Positions 5,665-64,000 of a DNA stretch of 64,000 nucleotides are shown piece by piece. Made by a program: the position numbers and the translations under genes. How positions within the stretch are numbered: position 1 is the first letter of the stretch; every line of letters starts with the position of its first letter. The notes under the pieces are model-generated. The model made no database searches and had not been told where the DNA came from. It saw only the letters and a list, made by a program, of their open reading frames with translations. Where the stretch lies: assembly GCA_963921795.1 (NCBI GenBank), contig OY997651.1, positions 45,683,156-45,747,155 of the forward strand, read 5' to 3'. The DNA is from Nannobrachium achirus. Taxonomy: Eukaryota > Chordata > Actinopteri > Myctophiformes > Myctophidae.

Positions 5665-8190
5665 ATGAACCAACATGGGGAGGTTGTGCAGTCCTGTAGA
5701 GAACCCAAAAGGAGGAAGATTGAGCACCAGGTTTGTTTTGTTTGTGTTATTCATTTTATAGCTATTTTTTATAGCTAAGATTTTTATAGCTAAGATTACC
5801 ACGTATTATCTATTATCTTTGTTGTGTTTGGAGTTTGTTGAGTTTTTGGTCACACATCGTTTTTACATTTAATGTAGTAGTATATGTCGATGGCGCATCC
5901 CATCCCTCCCCCTTTTAATGGATATCTATTAAAACATAACTATTGATCATCTTTTGTGTTATATTGCCTTTATTTTTCCACAATTCACTGTATTCTGCAT
6001 TCATGAATTGTCTTTTCTGCATGTCATTTTACAGGTGAACCTAACAGCGGTAGTGTTGAAGGCCTGTTTTGTCCCTCTGTCACGTGTGAGGTTTAACAGT
6101 GGACTGTTGGATGTGAAGGATGAAAAGGTTCCATTGGATATTTCTAACCCTGTGGAATACACAGCTGTTCCACAAAGTAAAATGGTAATTTGATTATAAA
6201 TGATATCTGTGGTCGAGGCCTTATTACACCACATTGAACCCTAGCAAAACAACACTGTATCACCCTAGCAAAACAACACACTCCAATAATGTTAGAAACC
6301 AAGTCTAGAAGATCAACAGAAATCTGCTCCATCTAACATGAGACTGTTCTACATGTATTTATGGGATAATTCCGAAGCAATTAAAGACACCAACTGTTTT
6401 TTTTATGTAGGTGGAGTTAAAACCAGCTGTTATGGCAGTGTCCTCAAAGCCATCACCTGAGAGAGATGTGAAACTACTCATAAAGGAAGAGAGTCTTTGT
6501 ATGCCGTGCACAAGATACACTAAAGGTGAGAGCGATGATGATCCTGATGCTTGCACTCAGAAAGTACAATCAGCAGTTGTTGCCGGGACTGATTTCTGAG
6601 CTGAACCATTGAATTCAGATGAAGAATGCACACATTTATTTGATCAAACATGTGATTTTGTGACATGCCATGCTTCGTTTGTTATGAAACATTGCTGGAT
6701 CACTGCCACATTGCCAAATACAAATGTTTAAACGTGTTGGGATAAAACTGGTTATGCTTCAAAGAGTGTCCTGACTGAACTATGATTTTATTTTCCTCCT
6801 CCTAGACGGTGTCCCTCTTTGTAAAGAGGAGTCTTCACCAGAACAGAAGGAGCAGGGTTCCAGACCGATCAAGAAGGAACCAGAACCTCCACAGATCAAA
6901 GAGGAACAAGAGGACGTCCCATTAGAGGCTGGCGGGACAACGTTGACATCAGTGACTGTGAAAAGTTCAACTGATGAAAACAGAGAAACAGACCCTCCAG
7001 CCAGCTCCTCATACACACACAAACAAATGCAAGCTGGGGCAGATGGTACTCTGAAGCAGCACACAAGGATTCATACAGGAGACAAACCCTTCAGCTGTAC
7101 ATTTTGTGGTAAAAGCTTTACTACAAAGAGTTATCTGAAGCTACACATGCTAATTCATACAGGGGAAAAACCCTTTAGCTGCACATTTTGTGACAGCAGC
7201 TTTAGTGGTAAGGGTGCCCTGAAGCAGCACATGAGGATTCATACAGGGGAAAAACCATACAGTTGTACTGTTTGTGGCAACAGCTTTAAAACATTGAGTC
7301 ATCTGAAGCAACATATGCTAATTCATACAGGGGAAAAAACATTTTGCTGTACAGTGTGTGGCAGCAGCTTTAGTTGTAATGCATATCTGAAGCAGCACAT
7401 GAAGATTCATACAGGGATAAAACCATACAGCTGTACTGTTTGTGGCAACAGCTTTAATTGTAGTGGTCATCTGAAATCACACATGAGGATTCATACAGGC
7501 GAAAAACCCTATAGCTGTGAAATTTGTGGCAACAGCTTTAGTTGTAATAGTGCTCTGAAGCAGCACATGAGGATTCATACAGGGGAAAAGCCCTATAGCT
7601 GTGAAATTTGTGGCAACAGCTTTAATCGTAGTGATCATCTGAAATCGCACATGAGGATTCATACAGGGGAAAAACCATTTTGCTGTACACTTTGTGGTAA
7701 CAGCTTTAGTCTCGCACATAATCTGAAGAAACACATGTTAATTCATACAGGGGAAAAACCATTTTGCTGTACACTTTGTGGTAACAGCTTTACTCTAGCA
7801 GGTAATCTGAAGCAACACATGTTAATTCATACAGGGGAAAAACCCTTTAGCTGCACAGTGTGTGATAGCAGCTTTAGTTCCAAGGGCAGTCTGACGAGGC
7901 ATTTGAGGATTCACACTCTGGAAAAGCCCTATAGCTGTGAAATGTGTGGCAACAGCTTTAATTGTAATCGTGATCTGAATTCGCACATGAGGATTCATAC
8001 AGGAGAAAAGCCCTATAGCTGTGAAATTTGTGGCAAATGCTTTAGTTTAAAAAGTAATCTAAAGCCGCACATGAGGGTTCATACAGGGGAAAAACCCTTT
8101 AAATGCACAGTGTGTGGCAACTGCTTCAGTCAAGAGTGTAATCTGAAGCAGCACATGAGGATTCATACAGGGGAAAATAAAGCCCTTTAG
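5665..8190 (+). CDS. C2H2 zinc-finger protein, copy B (13 fingers)
   Basis: Likely nuclear DNA-binding regulator. Coding exons are 5665-5730, 6035-6184, 6411-6525 and 6806-8190. Donors and acceptors are GT/AG and phases are consistent, giving 571 residues. Exon 2 (residues 1-22) has a basic KRRK patch, a plausible nuclear localisation signal. Exons 3-4 (23-110) carry a module conserved among the copies that I do not recognise. Residues 111-207 are acidic/polar with IKKEPE and IKEE, which resemble SUMO-acceptor motifs. Thirteen fingers span about 208-566, most with C-x2-C and H-x3-H. One linker is HTLEKP and one HTGIKP. No KRAB, BTB or SCAN domain is visible. The gene is open throughout, but a MITE splits its promoter. 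Confidence 0.88.
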
Positions 8191-15999: not shown

Positions 16000-18474
16000 T
16001 CATTCCAACAGAATGAATGGAGTGATCACATATAAAGATTCATCTGAAATACTGTAGGCAGTCTGCATGTCAAATGGTGTACAAAACTTCAGGTCAGCCA
16101 GTTTAATTACAAGTCTTTCATCACTTCTTGACACTCTGAATGCATGATGATGCTCATCAAATTGCTCTGTAAACAGCCTGCTTGACAAAAAGAAAATGTG
16201 TTCCTCAACTAAAAGTACATCACTTATTTGACAGAAGACTGGCATATCTTCCTCTAATGCCCTACACACAACAAGTCCAGCTTTAAATTGAACACCATTA
16301 ACTTTAACCCAAGTGGTTGAGAAAACCTCTTTTGAAAAAATCATGTTGTCATTGTTAACATCATTTTCTTCGAGGGAAAAAGTTTTAATTGGCCCATATT
16401 CTGTGTGCTTGAGATTGAAGCTTTCCCAATGATGGGCAATGGCCATCTGATGCTTTTTAGCCAGTGATTTTGTTATGTTTTTGAAATTTTTAAAATAATC
16501 TTTAAACATCTTGTGTTTGGCTTCAAACCTCATACACCACATATGTAGCAATGGGCCAATTTTCCTTATAGCATGTGGATAATGTATCATAAAGTGATGT
16601 TTCGGTATCAAGTTTCTGTTTGGATACAATTGTTTAAATAGTGTGTGGTGCTCCAAAATCAAATGCTTTAAATATGTCGTCATGCCTAGAGTTAGAGAAG
16701 GTGAAAACACTATGTTCATTATTTGAAGTAACAGCAGCAACAAATTCCAGTTTTTGTTCCCTGCAGGAATAATGTCACCAAACAGCAGTGGGATGTTTTT
16801 TACAAGACACAACGTCTGAATAGAATTTAAACCAATGTTATTGCCAGCACTCTCCAAAATAATCTTTGTGGGACGGTTCTTTCGTTCTAAAAATCCATAA
16901 TCAAAGGAATAAATCCTGGAAAGTAAGTCCTGTTCTGAAATGCAGTTTTTTGTGAGATATCCAAAAAGCAACTTCATTTCGTACTGAGCCACACCCTCAA
17001 GAAGATCATGCATTATATCAAATGCATAGTTATTAGAAACATGAAAGTACTTCAATGAATTAAGTGTAGAATTCTTTTTCACACCATATACTGACTTCAA
17101 TTGTGGATTATCCTGGAGAGACTGACAATGCATTTCAAACGCATCTTTTCCACGAAGGATTACTTTAGGATCATCCTCACAGTATACTGTTTGAGTATCA
17201 TCCTTCTCGATTAAACAAAAACGACAAAAATATTGGCTATTGAATGACTCATTAAAACCAAGAATTGAGTGCATCCCTAGATTATCTCCTGTGATCTGTG
17301 AGATTGTACCATATATCTGCTCATCAGAAAATGGTAGACTGAGCCCTTCACTTTCCAGTTTTTTCACATCATTTAGCAACGGTTCCAGTATAGCATCAAA
17401 GCCATACTTTTGGAGATCTTGTGTGTGAAAAAGTGATATCAAATGAATGTTCATTAGAGCCGAATTATATTTTGGGGGCAAATTTCTAAGAATGAAATAC
17501 AGACAGCCTAATTTGTGAAGTCCACGTTTGGAACCAAGGGCATTTCCAGTTTCAAAATCATCGTAATAGACTTGAATTTGTAGTGCGTGTCTTTTAGCTG
17601 TGAATAAAGGGTGAGTTTTAAAATAACTTCCATCACAAAAGTCAGTATAAATGTCAGGCTCAGATCTACACTCTTTCTTAAGTAATTCACAAATGTCTGG
17701 ATTTCCGCACATAAATGTCAAGGTTTCTAAAATTGGCACATATATAAAAGTATCCTTAACAGGAACTTGATCATACGTGCCAGATTTCTGATTAAGCCTG
17801 GTGTCAAATCTCACTCCCAGTGTAATTTCTATTGGCTCTACGACTTCCCATTTTTGTGTAAAGTATTTATTTCGTTTCCATTCTGTATTCAGGTTTGTGA
17901 AAGGGTTTTCTAAACGGTTCATAGATTCATTTATCACAGATATGTCAGGGTTAGGTAAAGCAGAGATGATAGTCTGTTTTGCTTGTGAGCGAAGCTCGCT
18001 TGTAAGTTCCTCCAGATCCCCTACAATTGAGGTTACCAAGCTGTTGGAAATACCACTCCCCTGTAATTTAGCCACAATAGATGCACACATGTCTTTGGTT
18101 GTATCCGTAGGAAGTCCTGAATCATTGTTCTCAAAAGAAACACTGGAAGAGCAACATTGATGTGGGGAATTCAACTCATCCCCCAAAGCAAAGGCTTGAG
18201 ATGAAGATGCAACTGGCTCACTGGAACTTGCAACTGGCTCACTGGAACTCTCAACATTAACATTTGAAGTTTGAGAGATTTGCTCAGCATGATGAACACT
18301 GTTAAGGTGCTTCCGAAAACCGTAAAATGTTAAGAACTGACGCCTACAGCCTGGCTGAGAACAAAGCAATTTGAATTTACCACCAGGATAGAAACTATGT
18401 ACAGTTCTTATATGTGATACTAATTCTTGACAACTGGGATAGCCTTTCTGACACATAAAACAGGTCAGCATCAC
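16000..18474 (-). CDS. Transposon-encoded 824-aa protein with N-terminal C2H2 motifs, probable transposase
   Basis: A single uninterrupted minus-strand frame starts MMLTCFMCQKGY. The first ~70 residues hold two C2H2-type motifs (CFMCQKGYPSCQELVSHIRTVH and CSQPGC...HLNSVH). A Ser-rich linker follows, then a long conserved core with acidic and His clusters such as AFDIMHDLLEGV and HYPHAIRKIGP, with FEAKHKMFKDY after it. I know this core from fish and invertebrate proteins of transposon origin but cannot name its family. The catalytic residues are not assigned. It begins 47 bp after the end of the nine-exon gene on the same strand. The length and lack of stops suggest recent activity. Confidence 0.7.
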   Translation of the reverse strand: MMLTCFMCQKGYPSCQELVSHIRTVHSFYPGGKFKLLCSQPGCRRQFLTFYGFRKHLNSVHHAEQISQTSNVNVESSSEPVASSSEPVASSSQAFALGDELNSPHQCCSSSVSFENNDSGLPTDTTKDMCASIVAKLQGSGISNSLVTSIVGDLEELTSELRSQAKQTIISALPNPDISVINESMNRLENPFTNLNTEWKRNKYFTQKWEVVEPIEITLGVRFDTRLNQKSGTYDQVPVKDTFIYVPILETLTFMCGNPDICELLKKECRSEPDIYTDFCDGSYFKTHPLFTAKRHALQIQVYYDDFETGNALGSKRGLHKLGCLYFILRNLPPKYNSALMNIHLISLFHTQDLQKYGFDAILEPLLNDVKKLESEGLSLPFSDEQIYGTISQITGDNLGMHSILGFNESFNSQYFCRFCLIEKDDTQTVYCEDDPKVILRGKDAFEMHCQSLQDNPQLKSVYGVKKNSTLNSLKYFHVSNNYAFDIMHDLLEGVAQYEMKLLFGYLTKNCISEQDLLSRIYSFDYGFLERKNRPTKIILESAGNNIGLNSIQTLCLVKNIPLLFGDIIPAGNKNWNLLLLLLQIMNIVFSPSLTLGMTTYLKHLILEHHTLFKQLYPNRNLIPKHHFMIHYPHAIRKIGPLLHMWCMRFEAKHKMFKDYFKNFKNITKSLAKKHQMAIAHHWESFNLKHTEYGPIKTFSLEENDVNNDNMIFSKEVFSTTWVKVNGVQFKAGLVVCRALEEDMPVFCQISDVLLVEEHIFFLSSRLFTEQFDEHHHAFRVSRSDERLVIKLADLKFCTPFDMQTAYSISDESLYVITPFILLE

Positions 18475-39788: not shown

Positions 39789-41785
39789 CTATATCCCATA
39801 TATGAAAGGAGGCCGGTAGTAGTATGGCAGCATCGGAACTGTCCATGGCACTTGGGTATTTGCATAGTAAGGCAGCGCTGTTATGTCATGACAAGTTGGA
39901 TTTCCAAGTTGGTCATACGTGAAGATCTTTGGTGATCTGCGCTCTCTCTGAGGTCGGTGAGATCGTTGCTCCTCCTCGATATCTTGAACTGATGACTGGG
40001 GTACTTCTCCCATAGGTAAGTTCTCCATTTGATTGTTCTCAGGTATGTATTCACCCACAGGTAAGTTCTCCATTTGATTATTCTCAGGTAAATATTCCAC
40101 TTGGATTCCTTCACTCTCAGGTAAGTATTCCTCTGGGTTCTCCTCGTGTTCAGGTAAGTAGTCAAATGATTCCCCCCAATCACCTATGCCTTCTGACTGA
40201 GACTGCCAATTGTCAACGGGCTCTTCTACTTCAGTCTCACTTGGGACATGTCCCTGCTGATTCGGTGACTGGCATGGCTGTTGAAGTGGTGAATCCACAA
40301 AGTAATATTCCTCCTCTTCATCATCCTCGTCATCCTCTTCAACCATGTATTTCTTTGTCTCTGATGCTTTTCTCCGTGGTTTCAGTTTCACATGCGGTTG
40401 TACTGGAACTTCCAGTGGCAGGTGGTCACAGGGCAAGAGAAGATTGCGATGTAATACCCTAGATCTCCCTTTTCCTTGTTCTGGTTTTAGCTCATAGACT
40501 GGTACATCTTTTCCAACTTGACGAACAACAGTATGGATAGAGTCTTCCCAATGATTTCTTAACTTGCCTGGGCCTCCGCGAGGTGTCATGTTCCTCACTA
40601 AAACACGGTCCCCTGGGTACAATGCTGAGCTTCTCACTTTGGTATCATAAGCTCCCTTGCTCTTTACTGTAGCTTTATGCATGTTTTCTTGGGTGATCTT
40701 ATAGGCCTCTTCCATCCCCTTTTTCCATTTCTCCACATAGTCACTGAGACTGCCACTCCTTGGTTCAGGATTTAAGTTGAATAGCATATCGATGGGTAAT
40801 CGTGGGGACCGCCCAAAGAGGAGGTAGAATGGGGAGTATCCGGTTACTTCACATCGAGTGCAATTGTATGCGTATATCAGCTTATTCAAAGAATCCTTCC
40901 AGTTTGTCTTTTGTTGGTCAGTAAGCGTCTTCAACATCTGGATTAAAGAGCGATTAAAACGCTCTACTTGTCCATTTCCCTGTGGGTGGTAAGGTGTTGT
41001 CCTCGACCCAGCGACACCACAGTACTTGCTCAGTTGGGAGAAGAGTTGGTTCTCAAACTCGCCACCTTGATCATGATGTATTCTCGCCGGAAAACCATAT
41101 TTGAGGGCATAGTCATTAAAGATCCGATCAGCCACCGTTTTCGTACTCGTTTTCGTTTTTGTACTGCACCACCGGTGCTATATTCTGGTCGTCTCTCTGG
41201 CTCTGTTGTATCTCTGCTGTGGTAAATGAGATGATCGGTGCATTTCTGGTAGTCACTGCACACGTAGCCGAGATAGCCATTGACCATGATATGTCAGATT
41301 CTTGCTGTGCTTCTACTGCCTGTGCAGTTGCTCCCACTGCATCAAATGACATCTCCTCCGTACAGTGTCGCATTAGTGTCTCCATGTCTATGGGCATCCT
41401 TGACAAACTGTCCGCATCTATATTCTCTTTCCCTGGGCGATACTTAATGCTGAAATGGAAATCAGCAAGTTCCGAGACCCACCGACTTCCTGTTGCATTT
41501 AATTTGGCAGTGGATAACACATATGTAAGTGGGTTATTATCACTGTACACTGTGAAGAAAGAGGCGTAGTATAATCGCCCATTTAAGAGCCAGAAACTCC
41601 AATTTCCCTGAATGGAGATTGTAGTTCTTCTCTGGTGCTGTCAAGATCCGTGATCCATACGCAATGACACGGAGTTTCCCAGTCTGCCGCTGATATAACA
41701 CAGCTCCTAAACCTTTGTTGGATGCGTCCGTGTGAAGGATGAAAGGCTGAGAAAAGTCTGGGAATCCAAGGACTGGAGGCTGAAC
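39789..41785 (-). pseudogene. Ty3/Gypsy retrotransposon pol remnant (RNase H + integrase)
   Basis: Minus strand. 41560-41785 encodes the end of RT and start of RNase H (HTDASNKGLGAVLY). 41128-41550 continues RNase H (YSDNNPLTYVLSTAKL, then SIKYRPGKENIDADSLSR). 39789-41135 (448 codons) is the integrase core with HHDQGGEFE and TTPYHPQGNGQVER (the second Asp and Glu of a DDE triad), a C-terminal domain (LYPGDRVLVRN) and an acidic tail with repeated ENNQMENLP. The zinc-binding N-terminus and first catalytic Asp of integrase are missing: the frames join across a deletion near 41135. The 5' part is cut off at 41785, where ZNF 3'UTR sequence starts. Confidence 0.85.
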
Positions 41786-54750: not shown

Positions 54751-55185
54751 TTACTGATCAATTAAAGTTGATTTGCGGCTATCGGGATACTTGTGCCGAT
54801 GGTTCTGCACAATTTGCAGCAAGTACTGGAGTTGGGTCTCATCTTTGGTGATGAGACCACAATATTCCTGTATTAGGGCAACCCCACGCTCTGCATGATC
54901 ATTGACAACATTGATTGTCTTCATTACAGCCAGAGCTTCTTGGTAGTCCTCCCTGGTCTCCCACTCATCGGGATCAACATCAAGGAAGTCATCTGGGAGA
55001 TCCATCAGTTTGAAGAGCACCTTGGATTTGGGAGATACAAAATCTTCAATGTTCTTCCTTGCAACTGTTCCAAGGTCAACAGTGATTCTCTTCATATGCC
55101 CCTGTTCATCCTCTTCATTTCCATCTTTCATGGCTCTCACCATCAGCCTCTTTGTTTGCGCACTCACTTGACAGTGCAAGTCCAA
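54751..55185 (-). pseudogene. Unrecognised transposon-associated protein fragment, left arm
   Basis: A 144-codon minus-strand frame ending in a TGATCAATTAAAG context. Features: HMKRITVDLGTVARKNIEDF, an acidic LPDDFLDVDPDEWET, and NDHAERGVALIQEY. It is the same protein as in the right arm but cut at its N-terminus, where the arms differ by a short indel. I recall similar C-terminal regions in transposon-like fish and cnidarian proteins but cannot name the family. Confidence 0.55.
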
Positions 55186-55358
55186 CGATCTCTGGAGCCA
55201 AATACCACAAGTGATTGGAGAACTTTTGAGAAGCAGCTTTAGACACCTCAGGATTTATTGATGCATATTCCAGCAACGATTTTAACAGTTGCAAGTCATT
55301 TAGTGGAGCGCTGACAGCAACGTGTTGCTGTCAGGAATATGCATCAATAAATCCTGAG

Positions 55359-55862
55359 GTGTCTAAAGCTGCTTCTCAAAAGTTCTCCAATCACTTGTGG
55401 TATTTGGCTCCAGAGATCGTCAGACTTGCACTGTTTGACAGTCAAGTGAGTGCGCAAACAAAGAGGCTGATGGTGAGAGCCATGAAAGATGGAAATGAAG
55501 AGGATGAACAGGGGCATATGAAGAGAATCACTGTTGACCTTGGAACAGTTGCAAGGAAGAACATTGAAGATTTTGTATCTCCCAAATCCAAGGTGCTCTT
55601 CAAACTGATGGATCTCCCAGATGACTTCCTTGATGTTGATCCCGATGAGTGGGAGACCAGGGAGGACTACCAAGAAGCTCTGGCTGTAATGAAGACAATC
55701 AATGTTGTCAATGATCATGCAGAGCGTGGGGTTGCCCTAATACAGGAATATTGTGGTCTCATCACCAAAGATGAGACCCAACTCCAGTACTTGCTGCAAA
55801 TTGTGCAGAACCATCGGCACAAGTATCCCGATAGACGCAAATCAACTTTAATTGATCAGTAA
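55359..55862 (+). pseudogene. Unrecognised transposon-associated protein fragment, right arm
   Basis: A 167-codon + strand frame. It starts inside a longer protein (FSNHLWYLAPEIVRLALFD) and ends RKSTLIDQ with TAA at 55860-55862. It has an AATAAAG signal at about 55960. It contains the same acidic and NDHAERGVALIQ segments as the left arm, differing from it by isolated residues (DRRKS against DSRKS). There is no start codon context or promoter, so it is called a 3' fragment of a mobile-element gene. Confidence 0.55.
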
Positions 55863-58158: not shown

Positions 58159-58536
58159 ATGAACCAGCATGGGGAGATTGAGCAGTCCTGTATAGAACCC
58201 AAAAGGAGGAAGATTGAGCAACAGGGTTGTTGTGTTATTGAATTGTATAGCTAGTTGTAAGATTACCATTTAGCCTATTATCTATTATCTTTGTTGTGTT
58301 TGTTGAGTTTTTGGTCACACGTCATTTTTACATTTAATGTAGTAGCAATGTAGCATTATGTCGATGGCGGTGTTATATTGCCTTTTATTTGTCTTTTTCG
58401 CCATGTCATTTTACAGGTGAACCTAATTGTAAAATAATTGTTTTTATGAAGGTGGAGTCAAAGCCATCCCCTGACAGAGTCAAACTTCTCATAAAGGAAG
58501 AGAGTCTTTGTATGCCGTGCACAAGATACACTGAAG
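58159..58536 (+). pseudogene. Decayed exons 2-4 of ZNF copy G
   Basis: Exon 2 (58159-58224) keeps ATG and 22 codons, but its donor is GGTTGT instead of GTTTGT. Exon 3 is reduced to about a dozen bases after the acceptor at 58416. Exon 4 (58452-58536) has lost 30 bases in frame yet keeps GTGAGAG. With exon 1 and the promoter deleted, this 5' end is unlikely to work normally. Confidence 0.8.
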
Positions 58537-59731
58537 GTGAGAGCGATGATGCTTGCTTGCGCTCAGAAAGTGTAATCGGCAGTTTTAGCTGGGACTGATT
58601 TGTGAGTTGAACCATTAAATTCAGATGAATGCACCGGTTTCTGTGGTTAAACAATGACAAGAGATAGATGTTTTGATCACATGCATTCAAAAGGAGGCAA
58701 GTTGGTCAGGTATGTAGACTAAGCCAGAAAAGTGAACAGCACAATGTTTTGACAAGCTATGCTGGGGGACACACAGAGATATGCACACAGAAAGTGTAGA
58801 CAGTCAATGCATTTGACATAACTTTTGTGCGTGATTTCAGCGAACCCACACAGGGGTTCAGCAGGAACCCCTTTTCTAGTTAGTGAATAGTTCCCAATAT
58901 TGTAGTCCTTGAAAGACAGTCATGTTAGTACTATGTCTTCATATTGATGACAACAGGGATCACTGTATAGGGGCATAAAAGGGACATACATGGATTTGTG
59001 GTTTTCTATGTTCCTGGACAATAGCTAACCCAACTTCACACTCGGCACATCCCTGAACCCTCCCACAGGTCTGTGGTATGTTGGATGCATTAATTCATTC
59101 GTAGGCTATGTGCTCAGCATATGCCTACTACTGATATGCCGACTTGCCATGCTTCCTTATGAAACATGACAGGATCATTGCCACATTGCCAAATAAAAAT
59201 GTTTAAACTTGTTGGAATGTGCTTCCTTTCTTATATGATTTAAACTGACAAGATAACAATGTCAATGTGTTCCACTCTTTATGATGTAACAATAAACCAA
59301 ATAAATGTTTTGCAATGTCTTTATTGCGTAGTATGTGAAAGTAAGGAAAGTATTACCCAGGCAGTGCTTCATTTCTTTTATGATTTAAACTGGCAAGATA
59401 ACAATGTTTTCCACTTTTTATGATGTAACAAACCAAAGAAATGTGTACACTTTTGCAATGTTTTAGTGTGTAGTAAGTGAAAGTAAGGGAAGTGTTCTTG
59501 TGTACATTCTTTTGAAAATAAAAGTTTGGAATCGGGATACCGTTATTCATTGTATTATTATTGTTGGTGTTGCTATTTTGTGATTTTGTGACATGCCATG
59601 CTTCTTTTGTTATGAAACATTGCTGGATCACTGCCACAATGCCAATTACAAATGTTTAAACTTGTTGGGATACAACTGGTTCTGCTTCTGCTTGTCCTGA
59701 CTGAACTATGATTTTATTTTCCTCCTCCTAG
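58537..59731 (+). other. Enlarged intron 4 of copy G with an inserted 3'UTR piece
   Basis: Intron 4 sequence is interrupted. 59218-59576 is a copy of the ZNF 3'UTR (matching 8680-9045, with AAAATAAAAG), and GTGATTTTGTGACATGCCATG resumes at 59578. The middle, 58690-59210, is mixed 3'UTR-like and unassigned sequence. Confidence 0.6.
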
Positions 59732-60672
59732 ACGGTGTCCCTCTTTGTAAAGAAGAGTCTTCACCAGAACAGAAGGAGCAGGGTTCCAGACCGATCAAGA
59801 AGGAACCAGGACCTCCACAGATCAAAGAGGAACAGGAGGAGCTGTTCCAAACACAAGAGGAAGTCCCATTAGAGGCTGGTGGGACAACGTTGACATTAAT
59901 AACAGTGAAAAGTTCAACTGATGAAAACAGAGAAACAGACCCTCCAGCCAGCACCTCCGACACACACAAACAAATGCAAGCTGGTCCAGATGGTACTCTG
60001 AAGCAGCACACAAGGATTCCTACAGGAGACAAACCCTTCAGCTGTACACTTTGTGGTAAAAGCTTTACTACAAAGAGTTATCTGAAGCTACACATGCTAA
60101 TTCATACAGGGGAAAAACCCTTTAGCTGCACATTTTGTGACAGCAGCTTTAGTGGTAAGGGTGCCCTGAAGCAGCACATGAGGATTCATACAGGGGAAAA
60201 GCCCTATAGTTGTGAAATGTGTGGCAACAGCTTTAATTGTAATAGTAATCTGAAATCGCACATGAGGATTCATACAGGGGAAAAACCCTTCAGCTGTACA
60301 CTTTGTGTCAACAGCTTTAAAACATCGAGATATCTGAAGAAACACATGTTAATTCATACAGGGGAAAAACCCTTTAGCTGTACACTTTGTGGTAACAGCT
60401 TTAGTCAAGCAGGTAATCTGAAGACACACATGTTAATTCATACAGGGGAAAAACCCTTTAGCTGCACAGTGTGTGACAGCAGCTTTAGTTCCAAGGGCAG
60501 TCTGAAGAGGCATTTGAGGATTCACAATCTGGAAAAGCCCTATAGCTGTGAAATGTGTGGCAACAGCTTTAATTGTAATCGTGATCTGAATTCGCACATG
60601 AGGATTCATACAGGAGAAAAGCCCTATAGCTGTGAAATTTGTGGCAAATGCTTTCGTTTTAAAAGTAATCTA
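59732..60672 (+). CDS. Exon 5 of ZNF copy G: seven fingers, eighth broken by a LINE, frame continues
   Basis: Acceptor TCCTCCTCCTAG at 59731 is intact. The frame (codons from 59734) has the acidic spacer with IKKEPG and IKEEQEE, the first in-frame ATG at 59974, then seven complete fingers ([63 protein letters not shown]). Finger 8 begins [14 protein letters not shown] and is cut in its helix before its zinc-binding His. The ZNF match ends at AATCTAA (about 60673). There is no stop: the same frame runs on into the LINE coding sequence to base 64000. Confidence 0.85.
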
Positions 60673-63600
60673 ATGACAACAACGGCGACAAGCGGTCCAA
60701 CGTTACCACCAGCTCTCGAGGCTGGGGCCACCGAGCCTAGAAGTCTCATAAAAGGAGCTAGACCGCTGGACATCGGCCCCGCTATACCACCAACGCCTGG
60801 AGCTGTGGCCACCGTGCCTAGAGGCCCCGGGCAGCGGGACACCGGCCCGAGGACATCGCAGGATCCCGAGGCTGACTACACCGAGCCCAGAAGTCTCTTG
60901 GAAGGAGCTGGGCCGCTGGACATCGGCCCCGCTATACCACCAACACCTGGGGCTGTGGCCACCGTGCCTAGAGGCCCCGGGCAGCGGGACACCGGCCCGA
61001 GGACATCACAGGCTCCCGAGGCTGACTACACCGAGCCCAGAAGTCTCTTGGAAGGAGCTGGGCCGCTGGACATCGGCCCCGCTATACCACCAACACCTGG
61101 GGCTGTGGCCACCGTGCCTAGAGGCCCCGGGCAGCGGGACACCGGCCCGAGGACATCGCAGGCTCCTGAGGCTGACTACACCGAGCCCAGAAGTCTCTTG
61201 GAAGGAGCTGGGCCGCTGGACATCGGCCCCGCTATACCACCAACACCTGGGGCTGTGGCCGCCGTGCCTAGAGGCCCCAGGAAGCGGGACAGAGGCCCAA
61301 GGACATCGCAGGCTCCCGAGGCTGTGGCCGTCGTGCCTAGAAGTCTCATTAAAGGAGCTGGGCCGTCATCTGGGACATCATCATCATCATCAGCTGGGGT
61401 GGCCACCGTGTCTAGAAGTCTCTGCACCGGAGCTAGGCCGGTGGCCACCAGCAAGAATAATCCAGCTCTGGACAATGACACAACACGGTCCCCCCCTCAC
61501 CTGCAACCCCCAAAGCCACCTATGGCTAAGGTAAAATACAGAAACCCAGTTTTTAAAAAACACAGAAAATGTAAATTTTTTAAAACACTAAACCAAGCTA
61601 AAACTGTGTGGGACCCCTTATGTAAACCCAAAGGTTTGTTCTGTGGCCATCTAAACATCCAAAGTATGGTAAATAAGCACAGTGAACTAGAAAATCTGCT
61701 TGTAAACTCTAACATTGACTGTTTAGGACTGACGGAAACATGGTTAAAGCGGTCATCCCCAGATGCCTTAGTGAGCATGCCTGGTTACAAGGTGTTCAGA
61801 AGGGACAGAGTAACTGGGAAGGGTGGGGGGGCCTTGCTTTATATCAAGAACACCTTACAATGTAAGCAAATTGTATGGCCCACTGAGATCCAGGCCGAAT
61901 GTGTAGGTGTAGAAATTACACTATCCACAGAGATGAAGTTCACTCTAATTTGCTTATACCGTCAGCCATCAGCTAAAGTAGAAGTATACGACCAGCTAAA
62001 GACCATCCTCACGGCGTGTGATTTTAATCAAGAAGTAATACTAATTGGTGATACAAATGTTAACTGGGACGATAAAAAAATAAGAAAAAATCTTAAACTA
62101 GTAACAGACCACTATAATTTGACCCAATTAATAGAGCAACCTACAAGAATAACCAGTCACTCAGCAACCAAGATAGATTTACTGTTTTCAAATAAAGTGG
62201 AAAGAATCGCTAAAACATTTAACTTCGTGACAGGTCTCTCTGATCACAACATCATATTATTTTCCAGAAAACTCTCAAAACAGGCGTTCAGCAAAGCTCA
62301 GTCCCAGCCTATAGTCAAAACAATCCCAAAACATCTGCAACATAGCCTTGAGGTCGCCCTACAAGGGCTTGAGTGGGATGATTTACACTCATGTGATGAT
62401 GTTGAGACCGGATGTAATATCCTTCTTTCCAAAATTGGCAGAGTAATGGAATCTTTCACCAGAGGTGGTAACCAGAGGAAAGGGAGGAAAATTACTCTAC
62501 CTTGGGTCGATAAAAAATGCAGAGATCAAATGAAAACCAGAGATTTACTGCTTAAAAAGGCATTAAAATCTGGCCTGACAACGGACAGACAGCTATTCAC
62601 ACATGCTAGAAACAAAGTCACAAATTTCTTAAGGAAGGCTAAAGCTGGATTTTATATCTCCATCATAGAGAGTGCCAGAGGAAATGGGAAAAAAGTTTGG
62701 GAATACATAAATAAACTGACAGGGAAATACTATAAGCAGGATAATAACAACTTAGAACTTAAAATAGATAATGTCCTGGTGAAAGATCCCCACACGCTTG
62801 CTAGCAACCTAATGCTGTTTTTTCTAAACTCTGTGTATGAAATCACCCAATTGTTCAGACCCTCTAAGTTTGTTCCACGCCCTGTTCAAAATGATCTCCC
62901 CATTTTTAATTTGGAGGAAGTCACAGAAAACGAGGTGACAAACATTGTCAGATCACTAAAAGCATCCAAAGCTAAAGATGCACATGGGCTTGACACAAAC
63001 TTTCTTAAAACAAATATTGACTCTCTGGTGGCACCAATCACACATCTGGTAAATCTGTCCATAAGAAAATGCACTGTCCCAACTCAGTGGAAAGCTGCTG
63101 TTATAACACCTATATTCAAATCTGGCTCAAAAACGGACATATCAAACTATAGACCCATAAGCATCTTACCTGTTATATCAAAAGTGGCTGAAAAGTGGAT
63201 TGTAAAGTCTATTGTTAAACATCTAGACAAAGGCTACACCCCTCTGCATCCTATGCAGTTTGGGTTTCGAGCCTTCCACTCCACTGAGTCAGCAAATTGC
63301 TTATTCATTGAAAAGTTAAAGTGTGCTTTGAACAAAGCCCCATGCGCAATGGCAGTATTTTTGGATTTCAAGAAAGCATTTGACTCTGTCAGCCATCAGG
63401 TCCTCTTGTCCAAACTAACACATTTCAACTTGTCCCCAGAGGCCATCAAATGGTTTACATCATACCTATCAAATAGAGAACAGTGTGTTAGTATAAATGG
63501 CATCAAGTCTCCTTATCACACTTGCTCGGTTGGTGTCCCCCAGGGATCAATAGTAGGACCAATTCTGTTTTCTCTGTTTATAAACGATCTACCTGATGTA

Positions 63601-64000
63601 TGTAAAGATGTACATATTCAGATGTACGCAGATGATGCTGTTATACTGACTCATGGAAAGAGCTATGCAGAGGTGTCAACGGTTTTAACTTCTGTTCTGA
63701 CCAGCGTTCAGGACTGGCTTACAGACTCATGCCTGCTCCTGAATGCAAAAAAGACGGTCTGCATGGCTTTTTCCAAAAGACCAGTTGTGATGGAATCATC
63801 AAATGTGTTTCTGGGTGGAGAGGAACTTGAACTTGTGTCAGAGTTCAAGTACCTCGGGGTCATGTTAGACTCAACCCTAACCTTTAAAAAACATGTAAAA
63901 AAGGTTACAAACACAATCAAGTTCAACCTTCAGAACTTTAAACAAATCACACCTTTTTTGGCAGTTAGTGCTGCTAAATCGTATCTCCAATGCATGATCC
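60673..64000 (+). CDS. LINE retrotransposon polyprotein (endonuclease + reverse transcriptase), 3' end outside window
   Basis: An open frame of 1,109 codons to the window edge, starting ATGACAACAACGGCG at the junction. Residues 1-~280 are Pro/Gly/Ala-rich and include the 150-bp repeats. The endonuclease domain follows: [14 protein letters not shown] (61729-61746), [19 protein letters not shown] (SDH at 62239-62247). Reverse transcriptase: [25 protein letters not shown] (from 63358), [28 protein letters not shown] (YADD at 63625-63636), then FKYLGVMLD. The catalytic motifs look intact. The clade resembles CR1/L2/Rex types (inferred). It is in frame with the upstream zinc fingers. Confidence 0.88.
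60718..61450 (+). repeat. Four 150-bp tandem repeats plus a degenerate fifth, coding
   Basis: Units begin at 60718, 60868, 61018 and 61168, with a degraded unit from 61318. Each encodes 50 residues with [20 protein letters not shown] and [20 protein letters not shown]. The period is a multiple of three and copies differ by few bases, so the frame is kept. A TCATCATCA run follows near 61375. Confidence 0.92.

Follow-up and report, generated by a model that had tools for sequence, protein, structure and literature searches.

The zebrafish LINEs ZfL2-1 and ZfL2-2, of the L2 clade, are described as encoding the endonuclease and the reverse transcriptase (RT) in one protein and as ending in short 3' repeats, and their inserts as 5'-truncated, with microhomology-type 5' joins (PMC4245944, PMC4176376). 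ZfL2-2 is further reported to have a single open reading frame (ORF) and repeat units near its 5' end (PMC4245944, PMC4176376), the latter described as 5'UTR (PMC4176376). For inserts of ZfL2-1 in a cell assay, the 5' end is described as joined only with microhomology or extra bases (PMC4245944). A different arrangement is that of R2, whose zinc fingers lie N-terminal to the RT and are reported to contact target DNA (PMC12180492). The endonuclease of R2 is restriction-like and follows the RT, and its fingers evolved at the rDNA target. In addition, 2A and 2A-like N-termini occur in APE-type LINEs, with the 2A (StopGo) motif quoted as D(V/I)ExNPGP (PMC4981915).

Here, we report the analysis of a zinc-finger/LINE reading frame in a 64,000-nucleotide stretch of the genome of the fish Nannobrachium achirus (C14:45683156-45747155; hereafter, the window). 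As judged from sequence comparison, this frame very probably arose when an ordinary 5'-truncated LINE landed in the final finger of one copy of a zinc-finger gene and happened to match its phase. The LINE resembles ZfL2-1 and ZfL2-2 in combining endonuclease and RT in one protein, in its short-repeat 3' end, and in 5' truncation with a microhomology-type join, and shares with ZfL2-2 the single ORF and the repeat units near the 5' end; in contrast to ZfL2-2, the repeats are coding and, unlike in the ZfL2 elements, the ORF has its start only a few bases from the 5' end. The likeness is one of features, not of clade placement. With R2, the joined frame shares zinc fingers N-terminal to the RT, but its endonuclease is of the apurinic type (Exo_endo_phos) and its fingers came from a host exon through insertion, so that it does not belong with the finger-guided LINEs of the R2 type.

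Translation of the plus strand from 59734 to 63999 yields 1,422 codons without any stop, just as the earlier note had read them. Read between stops, the frame begins at 59701, is still open where the window ends, and reaches TAG at window-equivalent 64465-64467, 1,577 codons from 59734. Pfam finds in this one frame (P0001) zf-C2H2 families, Exo_endo_phos (residues 640-838; 61651..62247), and RVT_1 (residues 1133-1377; 63130..63864), the last two above the Pfam cut-offs. A motif scan (C..C.{12}H.{3,4}H) and Pfam agree on seven C2H2 fingers at 60043..60609, all on the plus strand like the other parts of the frame. The eighth, at 60640..60672, is cut: it ends KSNL at 60672 and has lost both histidines through the LINE insertion, while the paralogues go on KPHMRVH. 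From 60673, the LINE fills the window to 64000, and the insert extends to about window-equivalent 64784. The linker behind the broken finger is a coding tandem repeat of 150 bp in 4.2 copies (60729..61365) that also occurs in other LINE copies and thus belongs to the LINE; further on come the SDH of the endonuclease (62239-62247) and the YADD of the RT (63625-63636). The succession of seven fingers, a broken eighth, a repeat-rich linker, and SDH-type endonuclease and YADD RT motifs was recognized in the earlier note and is corroborated in all its parts. The copy number of the 150-bp repeat varies among LINE copies with the frame unbroken; judging by ORF length, L013 has five units more than L012.

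The openness of each half is to be expected, since the zinc-finger half and the LINE half are both real coding sequence, and the sole coincidence is the matching phase, one in three. We compared the 5' junctions in 20 rows, excluding the window copy as well as L013, L015, L021, and L022, in which the piece retrieved by BLAST starts within the element. Across the other 15, the LINE frame extends upstream without a stop for no more than 162 nt; at the window copy it does so for 969 nt, a longer stretch of the kind expected where a LINE has landed in an exon.

The host gene copy was damaged upstream of the insertion, as the earlier note had noticed. Its exon 5 (59732..60672, as far as the LINE) is preceded by an exon 4 (58464..58536) that retains both acceptor and donor and is in phase with exon 5. 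The ATG exon (exon 3; 58159..58224), by contrast, has lost its donor, reading CAG/GG where the four other window copies that have this exon read CAG/GT; use of the next GT leads to a stop in exon 4, and exon 2 was not found at this copy. A gained segment at 58654..59578, missing at this place in the other copies, mostly resembles DNA downstream of those copies, and four AATAAA signals (59192, 59291, 59300, and 59517) lie ahead of exon 5. In the other copies, the coding path from the ATG exon through exon 4 to exon 5 is in phase, as seen on joining the exons of the copies at 5665 and 45513; in two more, the end of exon 4 was not located. Any transcript of exon 5 would therefore most likely have its start at another place, such as a copy further upstream. 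The zinc-finger array outruns the window on both sides: among the matches listed, fingers extend at least from about 45615425 to 45903726 (C14:45615000-45903726).

The insertion can be delimited on both sides. Of the 1,162 candidates for a junction query of 201 bp, 40 were scored; among the matches listed, the window's own place alone aligns with the query over its full length. Two paralogues on the same contig match its bases 1-114 at 100% identity, and LINE copies elsewhere match bases 111-201. Both paralogues are empty at the site and read AATCTAAAGCCGCAC, compared with AATCTA/ATGAC...TAAAG/CCGCAC in the window copy. The earlier note had pointed to the 3' end beyond the window as the place to look for a target-site duplication; there, directly past the TAAAG tail of the LINE, the zinc-finger exon resumes with the final stretch of the finger gene, CCGCACATGAGGATTCATACAGGGGAAAATAAAGCC. 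The target itself has a TAAAG, on which the tail ends, and the overlap amounts to 0-3 bp (TAA), varying with the assignment of the shared bases. Over the whole exon, the identity of the paralogues to the host exon is lower, about 90% (1,079 columns for L029), which indicates that the zinc-finger array is a mosaic and that these are not simple sister copies.

A search of the 1.66-Gb assembly that holds the window with 761 bp of the LINE yielded 98 candidate places, and all 40 that were scored, including the window's own, are 98-100% identical, as expected of a young LINE family. We fetched and compared 20 of these 40 copies, that of the window among them. All 20 end in GCATTGTCCCGTCTAAATAAACAAA followed by a TAAAG/TAAG-type tail. 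Twelve, the window copy counted, are truncated, and the starts of the 11 others are scattered over approximate element positions 674-1540 (BLAST). The remaining eight hold the junction-ATG sequence and about 576 bases more upstream (585 in L021), beyond which their flanks diverge. A short C-run and ATGATGCAACGG form the beginning of these complete copies, whose frame is open from this point to beyond the junction ATG; nearly all of the additional upstream sequence is coding (about 191 codons). The frame remains open to the TAG at the natural stop in five of the eight and is broken earlier in three. Genome-wide, a pattern search detects 11 complete-type 5' ends, the three beyond the fetched eight likewise with unrelated flanks up to the C-run. 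With an apurinic-type endonuclease and an RT in one ORF, this is an APE-type LINE, and the common 3' end, the short-repeat tail, and the many 5'-truncated copies are those of a dispersed LINE. The closest protein relatives include two with species names, both from fish (Merluccius polli and Pygocentrus nattereri). Neither the LINE 3' end nor the 5' end of one complete copy had a match in Rfam at E<=1.

Only about 2-5 C-rich bases precede the ATG of the complete LINE (L012:1859-2434 and 10 other complete copies), and the element is thus nearly leaderless. CATGAT stands directly before the C-run in four of the 11 complete copies (5' flanks of L013, L021, L025, and L031), and CATGAG lies no more than about 8 bases past the tail in three of the 20 copies (3' flanks of L009, L013, and L019). 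Perhaps these hexamers, noticed post hoc, reflect a target preference or a trace of 5' joining.

The ORF of the complete copies starts with a hydrophobic stretch and LLLSGDVHPCPGP, which is 2A-like. In a single comparison, this region is 42% identical to P0008 across 69 aligned columns (E 1e-5), with LLLSGDVHPCPGP present in both; P0010 is matched less strongly (E 0.003), and there the match ends with GDIHLNPGP. The N-terminal region is thus related to other LINE proteins. With the 2A and 2A-like N-termini of APE-type LINEs, the complete copies share the hydrophobic stretch and LLLSGDVHPCPGP, but the N of the motif is missing: in place of D(V/I)ExNPGP, the complete LINE has GDVHPCPGP. The same change of NPGP to PCPGP is seen in the relative P0008. 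The LINE N-terminus can accordingly be read as a degenerate 2A-like one, and the window copy lacks the entire region.

Comparison with the complete copies changes how the junction has to be understood. The window LINE starts at about element position 577 (574 by BLAST, with target bases counted in) and is, therefore, 5'-truncated. The junction ATG (60673..60675) corresponds to a methionine within the complete ORF, about codon 192, and an ORF of 1,264 codons runs from it to the TAG. The earlier note had called the LINE complete-looking, which holds for the endonuclease and the RT; the element itself is missing about 191 N-terminal codons. The natural start of the ORF, which that note had suggested could be the ATG at the junction, lies the same distance upstream. 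The junction ATG as the native start of the LINE, or as the beginning of the element, is ruled out by the coding sequence upstream in the complete copies.

Relative to the 19 other copies, the window LINE has 6-38 differing sites over up to 3,250 aligned columns, the fewest relative to L014, as would be expected of a recent insertion. Compared with six other copies, its ORF carries six private changes, five of them amino acid-changing and one silent; this 5:1 ratio, a small count, gives no sign of purifying selection on the ORF. With so few changes in a recent copy, the open frame says little on selection either way. In L014, the same (TAAAG)4 tail is followed by CCGCACA, the seven bases also found at the zinc-finger site. 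This is possibly due to an L014-like RNA that read past its end and primed on the CCGCACA match, or to chance.

Taken together, these observations are best accounted for by the chance insertion of a truncated LINE. A young LINE with an apurinic-type endonuclease would have inserted by target-primed reverse transcription into a copy of the tandem zinc-finger family, the (TAAAG)n tail presumably pairing with the TAAAG of the target; first-strand synthesis would have halted about 576 bases before the 5' end of the element, and the 5' end would have been joined at the A of an internal ATG. The site is consistent with such tail pairing and fits the 5' joining described for ZfL2-1 in the cell assay (PMC4245944). 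Because the LINE ORF spans nearly the whole element from its 5' end, no stop is found between the break and the endonuclease, and this, together with the one-in-three match of phase, yields a single open frame that includes the zinc-finger exon. This frame would then be a by-product, leaving a cut zinc-finger gene and a truncated LINE. The earlier note had favored much the same explanation, a LINE in finger 8 with the frame matching by chance; the empty sites, the resumed finger, and the near-identical copies with other flanks bear this out, except as regards the junction ATG, which is not where the LINE ORF itself begins. Several findings sit less easily with this reading, namely, the intact 1,577-codon frame, the unbroken endonuclease and RT motifs, the exon 4/exon 5 join that is still in phase, and the use as empty sites of paralogues that are not simple sister copies.

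In a working fusion, the LINE endonuclease and RT would be guided to particular sites through DNA binding by the seven fingers. In favor of it, the frame is open, all seven fingers and both enzymatic domains are intact, and there is precedent in the N-terminal fingers with which R2 is reported to contact its target DNA (PMC12180492). Were an upstream copy spliced into it, the joined frame could in principle be expressed. We nevertheless regard such a fusion as very improbable, given that the junction occurs at one place in the genome among the matches listed, the private ORF changes bear no sign of selection, the native N-terminal LINE region is absent, and exon 5 stands behind a lost ATG-exon donor, an exon 2 that was not found, and AATAAA signals. 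It is just as improbable that the fusion is translated, for example, by splicing of an upstream copy to exon 4 or 5, with the fingers steering nicking and reverse transcription of other LINE RNAs. The retargeting of insertion that the earlier note had considered gains no support, the junction being found at a single place among the matches listed, the host copy damaged, and selection not visible, and the finger-guided enzyme was dropped as the main reading for want of constraint, recurrence, and an intact host gene. Nor do two empty paralogues, one occupied place, and a 5:1 ratio from a small count indicate the conservation or selection that a domesticated host-retroelement fusion gene should display. 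Translation of the LINE part alone, into a truncated protein unrelated to the fingers, could start at the junction ATG or at an ATG of exon 5, the open frame containing one in-frame ATG at the junction and nine further upstream. This, too, seems unlikely, if less so than a working fusion: in complete copies, translation starts about 191 codons further upstream, within a region that has relatives in other LINE proteins, so that the ATG at the junction did not evolve as a start, and no promoter is known. The least probable explanation, to which we give next to no weight, is an erroneous assembly join of the zinc-finger exon and the LINE. The analysis draws on a single assembly and the LINE is a young repeat, but both flanks fit one exon, the target TAAAG is common with the tail, as a true insertion gives, and the window copy has private changes.

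Proteins that combine C2H2 fingers with RVT_1 do occur among predicted sequences of other animals. When 5.8 billion proteins were searched with the joined frame in full (612 hits), the best 120 included three: P0255, with a partial RT between two finger arrays; P0257, with a retroviral-type RNase H; and P0279, with an integrase domain. These look like gene-prediction chimaeras and demonstrate that joined gene models occur, not that they work. No C2H2 domain is listed for the best 120 of 971 relatives of the LINE part alone, and among the paper titles listed none describes a C2H2-LINE fusion.

As an insertion, the event described here is ordinary. We infer, however, that the ORF of this LINE family, starting a few bases from the 5' end, with no stop upstream, would be fused in frame in about one-third of sense insertions into coding exons. 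Host-LINE fusion frames could arise simply by this route, and gene models of this kind call for transcript evidence before any function is assigned to them. Were the protein produced, the locus would provide a natural test of finger-guided LINE insertion.

Three other features of the window deserve mention. At 16000-18474 on the minus strand, an open frame of 824 residues has C2H2-like motifs at its start and no Pfam match at E<=0.001. At 54751-55862, open frames on opposite strands encode an almost identical peptide (ITVDLGTVARKNIEDFVSPKSKVLFKLMDL...), in a near-palindromic duplication whose plus-strand frame has no Pfam match. Finally, a minus-strand frame at 39789-41177, with weak integrase-core matches under the Pfam cut-offs, is likely a piece of an LTR element.
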